This document shows positions 437-10,664 of a stretch of 26,333 nucleotides of DNA, piece after piece. Made by a program: the position numbers and the translations under genes. Numbering within the stretch: the stretch's first letter is position 1; every line of letters starts with the position of its first letter. This stretch comes from a virus: IMG/VR virus record IMGVR_UViG_3300030380_001223, positions 1-26,333 of that record, one strand, 5' to 3'. The notes beneath the pieces are model-generated. The model saw only the letters and a program-made list of their open reading frames with translations, ran no database searches and had not been told where the DNA came from.

Positions 437-470
437 CTGCTTTCCCTTCTGTTTATTTGCAGTTTCATTA

Positions 471-499
471 CCCATACAGGTAACTATAGCATTTGTCAA
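471..499 (-). promoter_or_regulatory. Sigma70-like promoter for the leftmost minus-strand operon
   Basis: On the minus strand a perfect TTGACA (499-494) is followed after 17 nt by TATGGG (476-471). It lies 5 nt beyond the T-tract of the terminator at 504-538 and about 35 nt before the chosen start of the 73-aa gene. The -35 box is consensus, but the -10 box matches only in its first three bases. Confidence 0.5.
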
Positions 500-503
500 G
501 CAC

Positions 504-538
504 AAAAAAACAGAGCCATCCCGAAAGATGACCCTGTT
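504..538 (-). terminator. Rho-independent terminator, minus strand
   Basis: Read on the minus strand, AACAGGGTCATC (538-527) pairs with GATGGCTCTGTT (520-509) across a 6-nt loop. The 12-bp stem has two G-U wobbles and is followed by seven T (510-504, the first shared with the stem). It ends the unit that starts at the 613-641 promoter and would also stop read-through from the operon at 638-1215. Confidence 0.8.
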
Positions 539-606
539 AATAGACAGTAACTTGTATTGGAGTATTGGGGCGAGGCAGAAAGGAAAACGAAACATCCCCG
601 CCCCAT
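504..606 (-). ncRNA. Candidate small RNA, about 100 nt
   Basis: A consensus promoter (613-641) would start transcription near 606, and a strong intrinsic terminator ends it at 504-538. The RNA would begin with a 7-bp GC-rich stem (TGGGGCG, 605-599, with CGCCCCA, 572-566), have a pyrimidine-rich loop and a single-stranded middle, and end in the terminator hairpin. A hairpin at each end is typical of stable bacterial and phage sRNAs. No frame inside has a ribosome binding site and ends before the terminator. It could instead be a 5' leader with an attenuator for the downstream genes, but those have their own promoter. No known RNA family is recognised. Confidence 0.5.
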
Positions 607-612
607 TTTTCC

Positions 613-641
613 TATATATCAAAGGTGACAATACATGTCAA
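613..641 (-). promoter_or_regulatory. Strong sigma70-like promoter of the candidate small RNA
   Basis: TTGACA (641-636), a 17-nt spacer and TATATA (618-613) on the minus strand make a near-consensus promoter. Its -35 box overlaps the stop codon of the 90-aa gene (TGA 640-638). No gene start follows within 100 nt; instead there is a terminator, which is why a small RNA is proposed. Confidence 0.65.
626..640. promoter_or_regulatory. Operator-like dyad TGACA-N5-TGTCA, copy 1
   Basis: A perfect 5-bp inverted repeat with a 5-nt centre covers the -35 box and first part of the spacer of the 613-641 promoter. The same dyad, at the same place relative to a minus-strand -35 box, occurs at 1259-1273. 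A repressor bound here would block RNA polymerase. The ribbon-helix-helix protein encoded at 900-1094 is the nearest candidate regulator. Confidence 0.45.
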
Positions 642-910
642 CCCCTATATTCATATAAAGTGTTCATCTTCAATAGAGTTGACAAATTTCTGACAATATG
701 TGCCATACATTGATTCTTTGTGCCGACAAAAGCAGTAGTCCATTGCTTTAAGTCTACAGCTTCTCTTGCTTTGACAAGTTCTTTATCTGTAAACCCCAAA
801 CGTACGAGTGACATTGGCACGAGCAATTCATACTTCTCGTCATACTCTCGCTTGACAATATCATACTCTAAATCGGATAAGCCCGATGACCGTTGTTTTC
901 TAGTTGACAT
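638..910 (-). CDS. Hypothetical protein, 90 aa
   Basis: ATG 910-908 is preceded by GAGG at 6-nt spacing inside the end of the regulator gene, with an 11-nt overlap. The product starts MSTRKQRSSGLSDLEYDIVK, is charged and probably helical (KREYDEKYELLVPMSLVRLGFTDKE), and has no membrane segment. No family is recognised. It is the last gene of the short leftward operon that begins near 1240; its stop codon lies in the -35 box of the next promoter, so operon end and small RNA start are tightly fitted. Confidence 0.6.
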   Translation of the reverse strand: MSTRKQRSSGLSDLEYDIVKREYDEKYELLVPMSLVRLGFTDKELVKAREAVDLKQWTTAFVGTKNQCMAHIVRNLSTLLKMNTLYEYRG

Positions 911-1094
911 TTTCTTCCTCTAGTGCATCTAAGTATACGCCAATTGATTCCCTTATCAGGTCTGCAACGGCTACTTGCTGACCATGTATCAAACTTTCAT
1001 CGTGGGCTATTTTAGCAAGTCTGTCGTAATCTTCAATCTTTATGTTCAGATTGTAGTTCTTGGTTGGTGACAATATCTTGTTCGGTCTCGGCAT
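900..1094 (-). CDS. Ribbon-helix-helix (CopG/Arc-like) DNA-binding protein, 64 aa
   Basis: The 64-aa product has the layout of a ribbon-helix-helix repressor: a basic N-terminus (MPRPNKILSPTK), one beta strand with alternating residues (YNLNIKI), helix A (EDYDRLAKIAHDE), a short turn and helix B (VAVADLIRESIGVYLDAL). Such proteins dimerise through the strand and bind inverted or direct repeats as dimers of dimers. Start ATG 1094-1092 has GAGG upstream and overlaps the end of the 60-aa gene before it. The two TGACA-N5-TGTCA dyads nearby are plausible targets, which would make it an autoregulator of its own operon and of the small RNA. The fold is inferred from sequence pattern; the target is a guess. 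Confidence 0.55.
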   Translation of the reverse strand: MPRPNKILSPTKNYNLNIKIEDYDRLAKIAHDESLIHGQQVAVADLIRESIGVYLDALEEENVN

Positions 1095-1215
1095 CTTCCC
1101 AATCCTCTATCCTTGCACCTTTACTGTGCTGTTTTTTGCTAGGCACAATACGATTCCTATATTTATTACTACCCAACTGTTTAGCTATCGGGTTGTTTTT
1201 ATTAGTATATTTCAT
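1033..1215 (-). CDS. Small conserved marine-phage protein, 60 aa
   Basis: The start chosen is ATG 1215-1213, giving MKYTNKNNPIAKQLGSNKYR at the N-terminus; an upstream extension to 1248 has a non-ATG start and would begin at the -10 box of the promoter. The N-terminal half is very basic (KQLGSNKYRNRIVPSKKQHSKG), the C-terminal half very acidic (EDWEDAETEQD). Similar MKYTN..NP.AK.L...KYR proteins of unknown role are, as I recall, widespread in marine phages. As the first leftward early gene it may act early in infection, perhaps by binding nucleic acid through the basic half. Confidence 0.6.
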   Translation of the reverse strand: MKYTNKNNPIAKQLGSNKYRNRIVPSKKQHSKGARIEDWEDAETEQDIVTNQELQSEHKD

Positions 1216-1245
1216 AGTAGTATTACTCCCAACGGGATATCCAAT

Positions 1246-1274
1246 CAAATAACACGGCTGACAAGACCTGTCAA
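1246..1274 (-). promoter_or_regulatory. Leftward early promoter, divergent from the replication operon
   Basis: TTGACA (1274-1269), 17 nt, then TATTTG (1251-1246) on the minus strand, about 31 nt before the start of the 60-aa gene. Its first 18 bases match the promoter at 613-641 at all but three positions (TTGACAxGTxTTGTCAxC), so the two are probably co-regulated. Confidence 0.6.
1259..1273. promoter_or_regulatory. Operator-like dyad TGACA-N5-TGTCA, copy 2
   Basis: A perfect 5-bp inverted repeat around a 5-nt centre (TGACA-AGACC-TGTCA). The right arm is the -35 box of the leftward promoter, and the whole dyad lies about 15 nt from the -35 box of the divergent rightward promoter, so one bound protein could affect both directions. 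Same half-sites and geometry as the dyad at 626-640. Confidence 0.45.
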
Positions 1275-1344: not shown

Positions 1345-2142
1345 ATGAGTTCACCAGCTTGGCTGACAGGATATGTAGAATCGTTGGACATACCCGCATT
1401 GGGTAGATACAGGTCTGACTGTCCAGTTTGCGGCAAGGCAAACACGTTCAGTGTTAGTGACGATGGCCTGCAACGATTGTGGTACTGTTTTCATGCAGAC
1501 TGCAACGTCAAAGGGCGCACCGGCATCACGCTGACAAAAGATTTTGCCAAACATGCACTATCTCGCAAAGAGAAACGTACGCCCCCACCCGAAACATCTG
1601 TATTTCAAACACCTGACACGTTTGTCAGTCTGTCTCGCAATCTTGATGCAGAACTTTATGTTCGCTCTGTAAATGCTTATGATGCTTACCTTTCTGGTCG
1701 AGCAGACATACAGTACGATTTCAAACGTAACCGTGTCGTGTACATGGTGAAGGACGGACGGCGTGTTGTTGATGCGGCGGGGAGAAGCATAGATGGACGT
1801 AAACCAAAGTGGTATCGATATGGAAACAGTAAACAGCCTTTTGTCTGTGGGAGCGGAGATATTTGTTTTGTGGTTGAGGATTGCGCTTCATCATGCGCTA
1901 TTAGTAATCTGACTACGGGCATAGCTTTGTTGGGTACAAATCTTTTGCCCGAACACGTTGACTTGTTAAAAACGTACAGGAAGGTAAACATCGCCCTAGA
2001 CAAAGACGCTACAGACAAAGCACTTGACATGGTACGCACGTTGCATAATGTTGTGCCTACAAAATTAGTCATCTTGACACAGGATTTGAAGAACATGAAG
2101 GGAGACGAGCGGGATGAGTTCATTCGACAGTACATTGATTGA
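1345..2142 (+). CDS. DNA primase (zinc-finger plus TOPRIM), 265 aa
   Basis: This is the primase of the replisome, making RNA primers for lagging-strand synthesis. A zinc-binding domain comes first (C26, C29, C48, C53, in CPVC and CFHADC). A TOPRIM-type catalytic core follows, with the acidic residue in VVED (E178) and the DxD pair in LDKD (D219, D221). ATG 1345 has GGAGAAG just upstream and sits just after the promoter's start point; the frame is open back to 1282, but that part precedes transcription. In T7 primase and helicase are one protein (gp4); here they are two genes overlapping by 29 nt. At 265 aa it matches the T7 gp4 primase half in length. Confidence 0.85.
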   Translation: MSSPAWLTGYVESLDIPALGRYRSDCPVCGKANTFSVSDDGLQRLWYCFHADCNVKGRTGITLTKDFAKHALSRKEKRTPPPETSVFQTPDTFVSLSRNLDAELYVRSVNAYDAYLSGRADIQYDFKRNRVVYMVKDGRRVVDAAGRSIDGRKPKWYRYGNSKQPFVCGSGDICFVVEDCASSCAISNLTTGIALLGTNLLPEHVDLLKTYRKVNIALDKDATDKALDMVRTLHNVVPTKLVILTQDLKNMKGDERDEFIRQYID

Positions 2143-3343
2143 CAGACAAATACTTGGGTTTTGTCTTAACAACGACTTCTTTGGTCGTGCAAAGAACATT
2201 CTCGATAGAACTATGTTCCAGCGTGAGATGCGTGACATATTTGACACGCTGACTTACCATCACACTACTTACGATACGAACATAACTGTGGGCGAACTGG
2301 CTGTCTTGTTTTCTGACCGCTACCCTGCCATGCCTGACAGCGCACGTAAAAACGTACACGATGTGATTGCACAGCTTGATTGTGGTACGCCTGACAACGT
2401 GGACTTGCACATGGAATTGGTAAACAACTTTTGGTTGCGAGACCGTGCGCGAATCATAGGTGAAAAAGCAATCGAGATATTTACAGGTGAAAGCGAGGAG
2501 TTTGGTGAGTTACGTCGTCTCATTGAGGCTGTTGAAGATGGGCGAATTAGTGACAAGACAACCTATACGGAAGAAACATCCACGCTTGAGGAACTATTGG
2601 ATGACCAAGTGGGAGACCCTGACTTCCCTTTCGAGTTCGGCCTCATCAGGGACGAGGTAGAGGGTCTTGATAGGGGCAACTTGGGTATCATCTTTGCCAG
2701 ACCAGAGGTAGGTAAGACCACCTTCTGCTGCTTCCTAGCTGCAAGTTACGTACGTGCAAAGCAAAAGGTAGTATATTTTTCTAACGAAGAGCCAGCAAAG
2801 AAAATAAAATTGCGTCTCATTCAGTCATTTTTTGAAGTCACACAGGAAGAGCTTGACAAGAATCGTGCAAAATACGTACCATTATGGGATGAGCATATTG
2901 CACCGTACTTTAAAATCATGGCATCTGTTGGTACGAGTGTCGAAGAGGTAGATGAGTATGCTAAACTAAACAAGCCTGACATAATTTTCTGTGACCAACT
3001 TGATAAGTTTCGTGTTGCCGGTGAGTACAATCGTGGTGACGAGCGGTTGAAGGAGATATACGTCAACGGACGTGAGATTGCCAAACGCAATAACTTACTG
3101 TTCTGGGCTGTGTCGCAGGCAAGTAACGATGCTCATGACCGACAGTTTATTGACTATTCTATGATGGACAACTCGAAGACAGGTAAGGCCGGTGAGGCAG
3201 ACATTATCATTGGTATTGGTAAGACAGGTTCGAGTGAAGTGGAGAACACCGTACGACATATCTGTATATCAAAGAATAAAATCAACGGGTATCATGGCAT
3301 GATAAATGCACAGATAGACATAGCAACAGGAGTGTATTACTGA
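2114..3343 (+). CDS. Replicative DNA helicase, DnaB/gp4-like, 409 aa
   Basis: This is the hexameric 5'-3' helicase that unwinds DNA ahead of the polymerase. An N-terminal DnaB-like helical domain (SFDSTLIDRQILGFCLNND) is followed by a RecA-type motor: Walker A ARPEVGKTT (K201), an SNEEP motif like H1a, Walker B IIFCDQL (D294) and H4-like WAVSQAS. The Walker A loop has Glu where Gly is usual (PxVGKT). The start ATG 2114 lies inside the primase end, with GGAG upstream, and the stop TGA shares its A with the next gene's ATG (3341-3345). Separate helicase and primase genes are a bacterial-style arrangement, but the overlap suggests coupled production for one complex. Confidence 0.9.
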   Translation: MSSFDSTLIDRQILGFCLNNDFFGRAKNILDRTMFQREMRDIFDTLTYHHTTYDTNITVGELAVLFSDRYPAMPDSARKNVHDVIAQLDCGTPDNVDLHMELVNNFWLRDRARIIGEKAIEIFTGESEEFGELRRLIEAVEDGRISDKTTYTEETSTLEELLDDQVGDPDFPFEFGLIRDEVEGLDRGNLGIIFARPEVGKTTFCCFLAASYVRAKQKVVYFSNEEPAKKIKLRLIQSFFEVTQEELDKNRAKYVPLWDEHIAPYFKIMASVGTSVEEVDEYAKLNKPDIIFCDQLDKFRVAGEYNRGDERLKEIYVNGREIAKRNNLLFWAVSQASNDAHDRQFIDYSMMDNSKTGKAGEADIIIGIGKTGSSEVENTVRHICISKNKINGYHGMINAQIDIATGVYY

Positions 3344-3921
3344 TGAGGGTACTTACCTTTGATGTGGAAACTACACATAAAGATAAGCCTAGCGGCGGTA
3401 CGACTGCACTGCCTCACTTCGGCAACCGTCTTGTATCTGTAGGTTTCAAGTGGATGGGTAATGATGTACAATATCTATGCTTTCACCACGCAGACCGTGA
3501 GCCTAGCCGGGATGCGTTCAACATATTTCAAGATGCCCTGCGTCTCGCTGATGTAGTTGTTGGACAAAACATCAAGTTTGATTTACAATGGATACGCTCA
3601 TGTAACTTTACCTACGAGGGACATGTATATGATACGATGGTTGCGGAGTACCTGTTGGCGAAGGCGAGGCGTTGGCCTCTTGGCCTTGCTGCTCTTGCTA
3701 AAAAGTATGGCGGCATACAGAAAGAGAAAGACCTCGTTCAGCCGTATCTCAAGGATGGGAAGACGTTTTACGAGATACCGTGGGAGATAGTAGAGGAGTA
3801 TGGTATAGCTGACGTAGCCGCTACAGAACACGTTGCACTCAAGCAACTAGAAGCCTTTGGCACAACATTTGAGGAACTTTATGGAAAACGAACTGATACC
3901 GACACTGAAGCTGTCGCTTGA
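3343..3921 (+). CDS. 3'-5' proofreading exonuclease (DnaQ-fold domain of Pol A as a separate protein), 192 aa
   Basis: The product has the three exonuclease motifs of family A polymerases: Exo I FDVETT (D7, E9), Exo II GQNIKFDLQW (D80) and Exo III YGIADVAATEH (Y153, D157). It is the size of the exonuclease domain of T7 gp5 alone. It removes misincorporated nucleotides and presumably works with the polymerase encoded right behind it, whose gene starts 41 nt before this one ends, in the +1 frame relative to it. In most phages both domains are one polypeptide. The split could be real, or a sequencing indel or a programmed frameshift could join them; GAGG ahead of the polymerase ATG argues for a true separate start. 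Confidence 0.85.
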   Translation: MRVLTFDVETTHKDKPSGGTTALPHFGNRLVSVGFKWMGNDVQYLCFHHADREPSRDAFNIFQDALRLADVVVGQNIKFDLQWIRSCNFTYEGHVYDTMVAEYLLAKARRWPLGLAALAKKYGGIQKEKDLVQPYLKDGKTFYEIPWEIVEEYGIADVAATEHVALKQLEAFGTTFEELYGKRTDTDTEAVA

Positions 3922-5422
3922 AATGACAGACGTACTCGCCAAGATAGAGTACAACGGTCTGAAGATAAACCTCGACACACTTGAACAGATACGAGAAGAA
4001 TACGAAACTGAGATGCACGAACTGGAGATGCGTCTGGATAGCTTGGCACGTGATGCTATGGGGGATACACCCATCAATCTTGCCAGCCCAGACGACAGGT
4101 CGATGCTGTTGTATTCACGTAAAGTTGCAGACAAGACTCTTTGGTCACAAGTGTTTAACTTAGGGCATGAGGTGCGTGGGTCTACACGCAAACCAAAGAT
4201 GCGTACTCGCATGAAAGCCAAGGAGTTTAAGGAAAACGTACGCGGTTTGACACGTGTAGTGTACAAGACAGAAGGGCAACGTTGTCCAGATTGTGATGGT
4301 GAAGGGCGTTTTCACCCCCTGCGTAAAGATGGCACACTCAGCAAAGCAGTGAGGGTCTGTAAGACATGCAGGGGTACGGGTGTTCTGTATCGCAGCACCG
4401 GCGAGGTGGCGGGTTTCAAGCTTGTGCCTCGCAACCCTATGGACGTTGCGTCCGCTGGTTTCAAAACGGATAAGGTTACACTCGAAGAACGTGCGCCAGA
4501 ACTTGATGGTGCAGCCCGTGACTTTGCCGAATCGTACGTACGGTACAATGCCTTGCGTACTTATCTAAGTACCTTTGTTGAAGGGATGCAAAACAATGTT
4601 GATGAGAATGGTTTTATACACCCAGAATTTATGCAGTGTGTTACGGCGACGGGTCGCCTTTCGAGCCGCAATCCTAACTTTCAGAATATGCCACGTGGAA
4701 GTACCTTCGCTATACGCAAGGTTGTCGAGAGCAGGTTCGAGGGTGGTCAGATACTTGAGGGAGATTACTCTCAGCTAGAGTTTCGTGTTGCTGGCTTCCT
4801 AGCTAACGACGACGGCATCCTTACAGATGTAGAAGCAGGCACAGATGTACACAGCTACACAGCCAGCGTTATAGGTTGCACTCGACAGGAAGCCAAGGCC
4901 CACACATTTAAGCCGTTGTATGGCGGTGTTAGCGGTACAGAGGACCAGCAAAGGTACTATCGTGCGTTCAAGGAGAAATACGCAGGTGTGAAGGAGTGGC
5001 ATGAAAGACTGCAGAGAGAGGCTGTGAAGGAGAAGCAAATCAAACTACCATCGGGTAGACAGTACGCTTTTCCAGATGCAAAGTGGACAGAATGGGGTAC
5101 AGCCACAAATCGTACTGCCATCTGTAATTATCCGGTACAGGGATTTGCAACCGCAGACCTGTTACCCATGTGCCTTGTACGTCTCAGCCACTTAGTGGAA
5201 AAAAATAATTTACAGTCTGTAATATGTAACACTGTACACGACTCTATCGTCATGGACGTACACCCTGATGAAAAAGATATTTGTATCAAACTGATGGTCA
5301 AGGCAATGTTAGCGATACCAGAAGAAGTTGAGAAAAGGTATGCTATACAATATACGATGCCTGTTGACATAGAATTAAAAATAGGATACAACTGGCTTGA
5401 CTTAACTGAAGTCAATGTGTAG
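3881..5422 (+). CDS. Family A DNA polymerase with DnaJ-type zinc insertion, 513 aa
   Basis: This is the replicative polymerase core without an exonuclease domain. Motif A is EGDYSQLEFR (D295), motif B is R335-x3-K339-x3-F343...YG, and motif C is VHDSIVMDV (H453, D454). The residue equivalent to E. coli Pol I F762 is F343. Within the N-terminal thumb region sits a zinc module with two DnaJ-like repeats, CPDCDGEG (C135, C138) and CKTCRGTG (C160, C163). A polymerase with a partial DnaJ central domain is, as I recall, a hallmark of HMO-2011-type marine phages. ATG 3881 has GAGG at 6-nt spacing; a TTG extension to 3857 is unlikely. Motif C carries Ser where many Pol A enzymes have Glu, which is common in phages. 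Confidence 0.92.
   Translation: MENELIPTLKLSLEMTDVLAKIEYNGLKINLDTLEQIREEYETEMHELEMRLDSLARDAMGDTPINLASPDDRSMLLYSRKVADKTLWSQVFNLGHEVRGSTRKPKMRTRMKAKEFKENVRGLTRVVYKTEGQRCPDCDGEGRFHPLRKDGTLSKAVRVCKTCRGTGVLYRSTGEVAGFKLVPRNPMDVASAGFKTDKVTLEERAPELDGAARDFAESYVRYNALRTYLSTFVEGMQNNVDENGFIHPEFMQCVTATGRLSSRNPNFQNMPRGSTFAIRKVVESRFEGGQILEGDYSQLEFRVAGFLANDDGILTDVEAGTDVHSYTASVIGCTRQEAKAHTFKPLYGGVSGTEDQQRYYRAFKEKYAGVKEWHERLQREAVKEKQIKLPSGRQYAFPDAKWTEWGTATNRTAICNYPVQGFATADLLPMCLVRLSHLVEKNNLQSVICNTVHDSIVMDVHPDEKDICIKLMVKAMLAIPEEVEKRYAIQYTMPVDIELKIGYNWLDLTEVNV
5364..5392 (+). promoter_or_regulatory. Possible internal promoter before the ssDNA-binding protein gene
   Basis: TTGACA (5364-5369), 17 nt, then TACAAC (5387-5392, 4 of 6 matches) lies in the last codons of the polymerase gene, about 60 nt before the next gene. 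An abundant ssDNA-binding protein would benefit from its own promoter. The -10 box is weak and the site lies in coding sequence, so it may be chance. Confidence 0.3.
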
Positions 5423-8567: not shown

Positions 8568-8722
8568 ATTGTTGGCATTGCAAGACAGAATTAATTTGGG
8601 GATGTGACCACGACATAGAAGAAGAAAGTGATTACTTCTGTATGGTCACAAACCTACACTGCCCAGATTGTGGCAGTGAAGTTTCAGTATACTTACCAAA
8701 GGAAAGAAAAACCGATGAATAA
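8564..8722 (+). CDS. Zinc-ribbon mini-protein, 52 aa
   Basis: ATG 8564 overlaps the TGA of the DUF3310 gene (ATGA). The product starts MNCWHCKTELIWGCDHD and has two CxxC pairs (C3/C6, C33/C36 in HCPDCGSEVSVYLP), the pattern of a small zinc ribbon. It ends within the start of the nrdJ gene (8-nt overlap). The role is unknown; such mini-proteins between metabolism genes in phages are often conserved but uncharacterised. The gene is supported by the overlapping start, the paired cysteines and the lack of any other frame here. Confidence 0.65.
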   Translation: MNCWHCKTELIWGCDHDIEEESDYFCMVTNLHCPDCGSEVSVYLPKERKTDE

Positions 8723-10664
8723 TATGTTACCTACCCCATATCAGCAATTCATTCACAAATCACGATATGCTCGTTGGATTGAAGATGAAGGACGCAGAGA
8801 AGATTGGCATGAGACTGTGTATCGTTACACAAACTTCATGGCAAATCACGTCAAAGACAAGCATGATTTTAATATATCAAAAAAAGACCTTTCTGAAATA
8901 CATGATGCTATTTTAGATTTACAGGTTATGCCAAGCATGAGGGCCATGATGACATGTGGTCCTGCATTGGAGCGAGATAATGTATGTGGGTACAACTGTT
9001 CGTATATTCCCGTAGATAGCCCACGTTCGTTTGATGAGTGTATGTACATTCTTATGTGTGGAACTGGTGTGGGATTTAGCGTAGAAAGAGAATGTGTTAA
9101 TAACTTACCCGTTGTATCTGACAATTTTAGTAGTTCTAGCACTATTATAACTGTAGCAGATAGCAAACCGGGATGGGCAAAAGCCTATCGTGAATTAATT
9201 GCGCTATTATACGCAGGACAAATTCCTTCTTGGGATACGTCTAATATTCGTCCTTCCGGTGCGCGATTAAAAATTATGGGGGGCAGAGCTAGTGGTCCAC
9301 AACCTTTAATTGACCTGTTTAATTTTACCATTAAGATATTTAAAAAAGCAGCAGGACGTAAGTTATTTCCTATTGAGTGCCATGACCTTATGTGTAAGAT
9401 TGGTGAGGTAGTGGTCGTAGGCGGAGTTCGTAGAAGCGCACTTATAAGCTTGTCAAATCTTAACGATGACCAGATGCAACACGCTAAATCTGGAGAATGG
9501 TGGGACGAACCTGATAAGCAAATATATCGGAATGGTCAACGGTCGTTGGCAAACAATTCTGTAGCCTACAAAGGTAAGCCAGATATTGGTACGTTTATGA
9601 GAGAGTGGGTTGCCTTATATGAAAGCAATTCTGGTGAACGAGGTATCTTCAACCGTGAAGCTGCAGACAAACAGGTGGCACGTAACGGCAGACGTGAAGT
9701 AGGACATATGTGGGGTACAAACCCGTGCAGTGAGATTATTTTGCGTCCATACCAGTTTTGTAACCTTTCTGAGGTCGTCGTGAGGGCTAGTGATACCCTT
9801 GATGACTTACTGAGGAAGACGAGAATTGCCACTATTGTAGGTACAATACAGTCTACGCTTACAGATTTCAAGTATTTGAGGAATGTATGGAAAAAGAACA
9901 CAGAGGAAGAAAGATTGTTAGGTGTGTCCTTAACTGGTATTATGGACCACTCCGTTTTATCCAAAAACGTAGACAGCAAACGATGGCTAGAAAAGATGAA
10001 AGAAGAAGCCGTCAAAACAAACGAGAAGTATGCAAAGATGCTTGGAATCCCTCAGTCCGCTGCAATCACTTGTGTAAAGCCGTCGGGTACTGTGTCACAA
10101 CTCGTGGACGCAGCTAGTGGCATACATGCTCGTCACAATGATTATTACATTCGAACTGTTCGTGGTGGTAACTCTGACCCTCTTACTCAGTTCATGAAGG
10201 AGTCAGGGGTGTACAACGAACCTGACGTTACGAAACCTGATACAAACACTGTGTTTAGCTTTGCCATGCAATCACCTTTAGGCGCAGTGTTGCGTACAGA
10301 CATATCTGCAATAGAACAATTAGAGCTATGGAAAACTTACGCTTTACACTGGTGCGAACACAAACCTTCCGTAACTATATCTGTAAAAGAACATGAATGG
10401 ATGGATGTGGGTGCTTGGGTTTACAAAAACTTTGATGTAGCATCAGGTGTATCTTTCTTGCCTCACAGTGAACACATCTATAGGCAGGCTCCGTATCAAG
10501 ATATGAAACGTGAAGATTACTTAGAATGGCAACAAGCGTACGATTACGTTACACTTGATTGGAGTAAGTTATCTGAATTTGAAAAAGAAGATACCACAAT
10601 AGGCTCCCGCGAACTTGCTTGTACAGCCGGTGTGTGTGAAGTCGTTGACCTGAGTGCAGCATGA
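8715..10664 (+). CDS. nrdJ: Adenosylcobalamin-dependent (class II) ribonucleoside-triphosphate reductase, 649 aa
   Basis: The enzyme reduces ribonucleotides to deoxyribonucleotides using B12 to make its thiyl radical, supplying DNA synthesis with or without oxygen. The active site is intact: NPCSEI with C338 (radical) and E340, C349 eleven residues on (matching C408, E410 and C419 of the Lactobacillus enzyme), the N-terminal redox cysteine in CGYNCSY (C91 or C95), and the C-terminal pair C636/C641 spaced like C731/C736. GGVRRSALISLS and CVKPSGTVSQLVDAASGIHARH are further family signatures. ATG 8715 has AAAGGAAAG upstream; the frame continues to 8628, but that part covers the zinc mini-gene. 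At 649 aa it is somewhat shorter than the roughly 740-aa monomeric type. Confidence 0.95.
   Translation: MNNMLPTPYQQFIHKSRYARWIEDEGRREDWHETVYRYTNFMANHVKDKHDFNISKKDLSEIHDAILDLQVMPSMRAMMTCGPALERDNVCGYNCSYIPVDSPRSFDECMYILMCGTGVGFSVERECVNNLPVVSDNFSSSSTIITVADSKPGWAKAYRELIALLYAGQIPSWDTSNIRPSGARLKIMGGRASGPQPLIDLFNFTIKIFKKAAGRKLFPIECHDLMCKIGEVVVVGGVRRSALISLSNLNDDQMQHAKSGEWWDEPDKQIYRNGQRSLANNSVAYKGKPDIGTFMREWVALYESNSGERGIFNREAADKQVARNGRREVGHMWGTNPCSEIILRPYQFCNLSEVVVRASDTLDDLLRKTRIATIVGTIQSTLTDFKYLRNVWKKNTEEERLLGVSLTGIMDHSVLSKNVDSKRWLEKMKEEAVKTNEKYAKMLGIPQSAAITCVKPSGTVSQLVDAASGIHARHNDYYIRTVRGGNSDPLTQFMKESGVYNEPDVTKPDTNTVFSFAMQSPLGAVLRTDISAIEQLELWKTYALHWCEHKPSVTISVKEHEWMDVGAWVYKNFDVASGVSFLPHSEHIYRQAPYQDMKREDYLEWQQAYDYVTLDWSKLSEFEKEDTTIGSRELACTAGVCEVVDLSAA

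Follow-up and report, generated by a model that had tools for sequence, protein, structure and literature searches.

The window analyzed here is the whole of a 26,333-bp linear virus fragment (IMGVR_UViG_3300030380_001223), and near its beginning the minus strand carries a promoter (P1), a hairpin and an intrinsic terminator in close succession, followed by a second promoter (P2) and the next operon (Table 1). A sequence-only reading had proposed a stand-alone small RNA (sRNA) gene at this place, bounded by a near-consensus promoter and a strong intrinsic terminator with no plausible gene between them. The promoter was found where it had been described, with the hexamers TTGACA and TATATA separated by 17 nt, and both hexamers are retained in seven near relatives. 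The terminator was confirmed as well: it has a 13-bp stem, no other terminator-like site in the first 6 kb of the window is as strong, and the first two of the seven T in its T run are paired. The GC stem described at the 5′ end of the RNA is present at its place, but it comprises 10 bp and not 7 bp. Folding of positions 606-502, which had been proposed as a check, gave -36.3 kcal/mol (z = -4.4), and none of 200 shuffled sequences folded as well. In near relatives, 1-nt indels disrupt the frame of the sole ATG-initiated ORF between promoter and terminator (606-496), and the possibility that the locus encodes a short peptide was rejected on this basis. The locus accordingly combines its own promoter and an intrinsic terminator with no conserved ORF, as an sRNA gene would. 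No Rfam match, including to the C4 RNA (RF01695), was obtained at the gathering score in the window or its relatives, and no tRNA, tmRNA or other known RNA was found.

Table 1 Features of the predicted small RNA gene and its surroundings in the window
Feature	Position	Strand	Details
P1, promoter of small RNA	613..641	-	TTGACA 641-636, 17-nt spacer, TATATA 618-613
Predicted small RNA	504..607 (predicted start ~606, end ~504)	-	Covariance models R1, R2; fold z = -4.4
Hairpin 1	566..605	-	10 bp, 605-596 with 575-566; 20-nt loop 595-576
Seed UUCGUUUUCCUUUCUG in hairpin 1 loop	576..591 (591-576)	-	Near-invariant in near relatives; pairs with translation starts
Intrinsic terminator	504..538	-	13-bp stem 538-526 with 521-509, UUCG loop, T7 510-504
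P2, promoter of next operon	471..499	-	TTGACA 499-494, 17 nt, TATGGG 476-471
Gene after P2, 73 aa	215..436	-	ORF list; weak PHROG 8580 match
Gene C, 90 aa, upstream gene	638..910	-	3′ end holds P1 and hairpin 1 5′ arm in distant relatives
Predicted target: RBS of first gene after P2 (ATG 436), CAGAAGGGAAAGC	439..451	-	13 bp with seed
Possible target: DnaB-type helicase RBS (ATG 2114), GAAGGGAGACGAG	2097..2109	+	-14.8 kcal/mol

The DNA polymerase of the window carries a DnaJ-type zinc-finger insert, and its closest cultured match is that of Pelagibacter phage HTVC033P (47.5%); on these grounds we place the window in the HMO-2011-type group. A DNA-level search of the window against cultured phage records gave no match. 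Several HMO-2011-type subgroups lack lysogeny genes (PMC9038755), and gene content together with sigma-70-type promoters suggests that the phage is lytic and that the locus lies in its early region. The polymerase itself is encoded in the window by two overlapping ORFs in different frames, 3343-3921 (+) and 3857-5422 (+), corresponding to a 192-aa exonuclease and a 513-521-aa polymerase bearing the DnaJ-type insert, whereas cultured HTVC033P and HMO-2011 have a single polymerase gene. Because the split arrangement recurs in four relatives (L103, L104, L106 and L107), it is not a sequencing error, and it may represent a split gene or a programmed frameshift.

In an uncultured HMO-2011-type clade, more than 60 related viral contigs carry the cassette of promoter, hairpin, linker and terminator at the equivalent position, which rules out a chance origin. 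In the subgroup of the window (seven contigs, the window included) the RNA is present with 23 of 23 pairs kept; the terminators of the near relatives show one double change and six one-sided changes, every pair being retained, and the hairpin 1 loop is nearly invariant between variable flanks. In nearly all other relatives the minus-strand order upstream of primase is gene C, P1, hairpin 1, linker, GC-rich terminator and P2. The first covariance model (R1), trained on the seven near relatives, found full-length matches on the same strand and in the syntenic place in L087, L078, L077, L051, L081, L079, L074, L065, L050 and L062, with E values in distant relatives of 1e-8 to 3e-3. A second, extended model (R2), applied to 57 further loci, gave exactly one match in 50 of them, all syntenic (E <= 0.0014); those without a match were L075, L076, L080, L082, L083, L085 (gene C not found) and L086 (contig ends inside gene C). 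A direct R2 search of the complete cultured genomes HTVC033P, HMO-2011, CRP-3 and CRP-1 gave no match. Longer versions of the RNA, with ~100 extra bases, occur in L019, L020, L055 and L081, and in L055 the extra bases lie inside hairpin 1, both arms of which are still complementary.

Compensatory changes were observed across lineages in both stems. In alignment A8 (16 sequences), which was fitted to the covariance model and is hence biased towards structure, 10 pairs are changed on both sides in 47 cells, a result reached by none of 500 shuffles; the unfitted alignments A2 and A5 agree. The sequence-only reading had named the lack of such changes among related phages as evidence against a stand-alone sRNA, and their presence supports it. 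The present analysis adds four elements to that first description: the locus overlaps the upstream ORF, a second promoter follows it, the RNA belongs to a clade-wide family, and its predicted targets appear to co-evolve with it.

The upstream overlap concerns gene C, whose TGA stop codon (640-638) sits within the P1 -35 box in the window. In distant relatives P1 takes the form TTGACA-18-TGnTAAAAC and lies inside the 3′ end of the gene. The codons at the -35 box were compared among 44 distinct gene C sequences. Leu, present in 40 of them, is always encoded by CTT, and the Val of the other four was read as GTT; Asp is GAC in all 44, and the Arg codon after it is AGR in 21 of 22. Other degenerate codons of gene C vary, unlike those at the -35 box, and this freezing of synonymous positions indicates selection on the DNA motif rather than on the protein. 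In distant relatives the 5′ arm of hairpin 1 also belongs to the coding sequence (xxx-CCN-TAY-GAR), and the 3′ arm mostly coincides with the stop codon or follows it. Changes at the third base of the CCN codon are accompanied by changes in its hairpin partner, an agreement favored by the choice of the 3′ arm by best match. Gene C belongs to a set of three small genes (71, 64 and 90 aa; 638-1248, minus strand) without clear family, which run from the divergent region beside primase as far as the RNA. All three are retained throughout the clade, but the set is not seen at this place in cultured HMO-2011-type phages, in which the genes upstream of primase are on the plus strand. A search for gene C in bacterial genomes yielded no confirmed match.

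These observations bear on the explanation that the locus is only an operon boundary, at which the terminator ends the A-B-C operon and P2 starts the next, P1 and hairpin 1 being incidental or protecting the mRNA end. A terminator followed directly by a promoter is common between operons, and this terminator can also serve the upstream genes. However, conservation of the P1 -35 box at synonymous positions, covariation of hairpin 1, whose 3′ arm matches the coding 5′ arm lineage by lineage, and co-evolution of the seed with translation starts, described below, make this explanation unlikely.

The RNA exposes a single-stranded, mostly pyrimidine-rich stretch in a loop or linker. The best minus-strand match to the loop in the 26 kb is the ribosome-binding site (RBS) of the first gene after P2, with -16.7 kcal/mol. 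Energies of duplexes between the full-length RNA and the P2 leader, which allowed long loops, failed to distinguish own from swapped pairs, and contiguous helices were used instead. With these, own RNAs paired better than swapped ones with the first gene after P2 (p = 0.004 with one sequence per lineage; 0.025 without the group of the window), pairing being weak in L024 and L087. The idea that this gene is the only target was dropped after a genome-wide scan of gene starts. The match to the DnaB-type helicase RBS is kept in three near relatives, and its ortholog-group test reached only p = 0.06. The second-best minus-strand match to the loop, CAGAAAGGGAAG (103-92, minus strand; -13.5 kcal/mol), precedes a start codon at 79 by 12 nt; it may be due to chance, since it is also within the glutamate-rich end of ORF 72-227.

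When all gene starts of the long relatives were scanned, strong matches appeared at several leftward early genes. The seed differs by lineage and yet pairs, mostly over 7-14 bp, with the translation-start regions of early genes of its own phage: the gene after P2, a DUF932 gene, an HTH gene and, mainly in one lineage, primase. The choice of predicted targets differs from one lineage to another. Perfect 11-bp matches occur in L105, a relative of the window, at the two leftward genes that score best there, a GP88-like gene (UUCGUUUUCCU with AGGAAAACGAA) and the DUF932 gene (GUUUUCCUUUC with GAAAGGAAAAC); a match to the GP88-like gene is also present in L107. Because the window ends before the DUF932 gene, we infer its main targets from these two relatives. 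The DUF932 protein (L095:12679-13683, minus strand, and orthologs) has almost no homolog in cultured phages, the only one being a weak match in Brevibacterium phage LuckyBarnes.

Among the DUF932 orthologs (21 sequences), own pairs summed to -204.6 kcal/mol versus -144.5 +/- 11.5 kcal/mol for swapped pairs (p = 5e-5), a value that, like those of our other permutation tests, counts related sequences as independent. The exception is the test with one DUF932 member per seed class (seven classes, all permutations), which gave a median p of 8e-4 when unpaired regions were considered and of 0.013 with the whole RNA. The longest Watson-Crick runs of the own pairs were 11, 13, 9, 8, 7, 10 and 12, versus mostly 5-9 in swapped pairs; in L072 the pairing with DUF932 is weak. 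In an unbiased test of 42 ortholog groups, primase ranked best (p = 2e-4), a value that overstates independence because the signal comes mainly from one seed lineage, with up to 14-15 bp spanning the start codon. DUF932 (0.0014), ribonucleotide reductase (0.004), a small conserved protein (0.006) and the HTH gene (0.017) followed, and the late structural groups in this test gave no clear signal. For ribonucleotide reductase, encoded in the window at 8715-10664 (+), and its orthologs (n = 12), the own RNA pairs better than the RNAs of others. Taken together, a single-stranded seed complementary to translation starts has been kept in evolution.

Promoter motifs, structure and terminator are thus conserved in the sequences compared, and the seed co-varies with translation starts. 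We consider it likely that the locus is the gene of a multi-target base-pairing sRNA of a marine phage, most probably one that damps early-gene translation. Host RNA polymerase would start at P1 and stop at the terminator, producing a stable RNA of ~100 nt that consists of a 5′ hairpin and the terminator hairpin and leaves the seed exposed in a loop or linker. The seed would pair with the Shine-Dalgarno (SD) and start regions of several early mRNAs of the same phage. The SD sequence and the start codon are the usual site for translational repressors, and the predicted pairing covers one or the other; most likely, it would block ribosome binding and so lower or time the translation of early genes. 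The apparent co-evolution of the exposed stretch with early-gene ribosome-binding sites suggests that the RNA controls the timing of their translation, and as similar promoters precede the RNA gene and its targets, the accumulating RNA would progressively damp early translation. The RNA may instead activate genes, or may have additional host targets. More tentatively, we propose that this one sRNA is a hub coordinating early-gene translation on both strands (DUF932, HTH, primase and variable early genes), an RNA timer in which the seed and the target ribosome-binding sites change together between lineages.

P1, the RNA and the next operon are consecutive on one strand, as would be expected of a cis-acting leader in which P1 reads into that operon and the terminator is an attenuator or antitermination site. 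We regard such a leader as improbable, slightly more so than a mere operon boundary. The hairpins fold separately, and the predicted minimum-energy folds contain no alternative that excludes the terminator, unlike what a transcription attenuator would require. Moreover, in nearly all of the >60 loci a conserved promoter of the next operon follows the terminator directly, and some predicted targets, primase among them, are encoded on the opposite strand. The -10 region of P2 is unusual and strongly conserved in nearly all relatives (TTGACN-17-TATRGGTWA), and the motif is kept although the gene behind it differs between phages. Least probable of all is an RNA acting in trans mainly on host mRNAs or host translation, with the phage matches as by-products of an anti-SD-like seed: UCCUU-type stretches exposed in several lineages would match many ribosome-binding sites, and the known phage sRNAs VpdS and PreS act on host RNAs (PMC12197685), but the GUUGUUGUGU and GUUGGUUGG seeds are not SD complements and nevertheless match starts of genes of their own phage.

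On the preferred reading, a base-pairing sRNA directed at early genes of its own phage, the locus would be a previously undescribed RNA gene of ~100 letters, conserved in ocean phages of a large uncultured group. Known phage sRNAs are few, and most come from temperate phages of enteric bacteria. The remark in the sequence-only reading that none was known for this phage type agrees with a 2025 review table of phage sRNAs, which lists none from the HMO-2011-type group (PMC12197685), and with the main paper on these phages, which does not mention sRNAs (PMC9038755). In a single-copy RNA present in more than 60 contigs, with lineage seeds tracking the ribosome-binding sites of orthologs, the joint evolution of an sRNA and its targets is naturally recorded. 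Such an RNA suggests that a dominant marine phage group controls its early genes post-transcriptionally, and it provides defined pairs for testing; if the reading is true, abundant ocean phages for which no such control is known would possess an RNA-based timer of their early program.

Among known systems, the C4 antisense RNA is encoded ahead of its target, ant, and in the same orientation. It is a ~77-nt RNA of phages P1 and P7 (RF01695) whose loops pair with target mRNA (PMC12197685, PMC5320573). The RNA of the window is similarly predicted to pair, over 13 bp, with the RBS region of the gene just downstream on the same strand. C4, however, has three stem-loops and is released when RNase P cleaves a longer transcript, whereas the window RNA has two stem-loops, several predicted targets, no Rfam match, and its own promoter and terminator, which make release by RNase P unnecessary. 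P22 sar and lambda OOP are also small phage RNAs, transcribed from promoters of their own, and regulate phage genes through base pairing (PMC12197685), but they are described as antisense to one gene each, in temperate phages; the RNA described here matches several targets, mostly over 7-14 bp, and is not fully antisense. VpdS of VP882 and PreS of lambda are, like the RNA proposed here, phage-encoded trans-acting base-pairing sRNAs (PMC12197685), and differ in belonging to temperate phages and in their reported host targets and Hfq binding; the matches found for the present RNA lie in genes of its own phage. The SmelA075/SmelA099 sRNAs of Rhizobiales provide a parallel from an alphaproteobacterial context, with hairpin loops that expose an anti-Shine-Dalgarno sequence (PMC3927594). 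They have three or four loops with CCUCCUCCC, whereas the phage RNA has one loop or linker and lineage-specific seeds; CCUCCUCCC is absent from the compared phage RNA sequences, the nearest being CCUCCUUU in L051 and L052. RNAs of the SmelA075/SmelA099 type are named 'cuckoo'. By the comparisons made, the predicted sRNA is a member of neither the C4 family nor this type, and by analogy it would work like both C4 and the alphaproteobacterial sRNAs with anti-SD loops.
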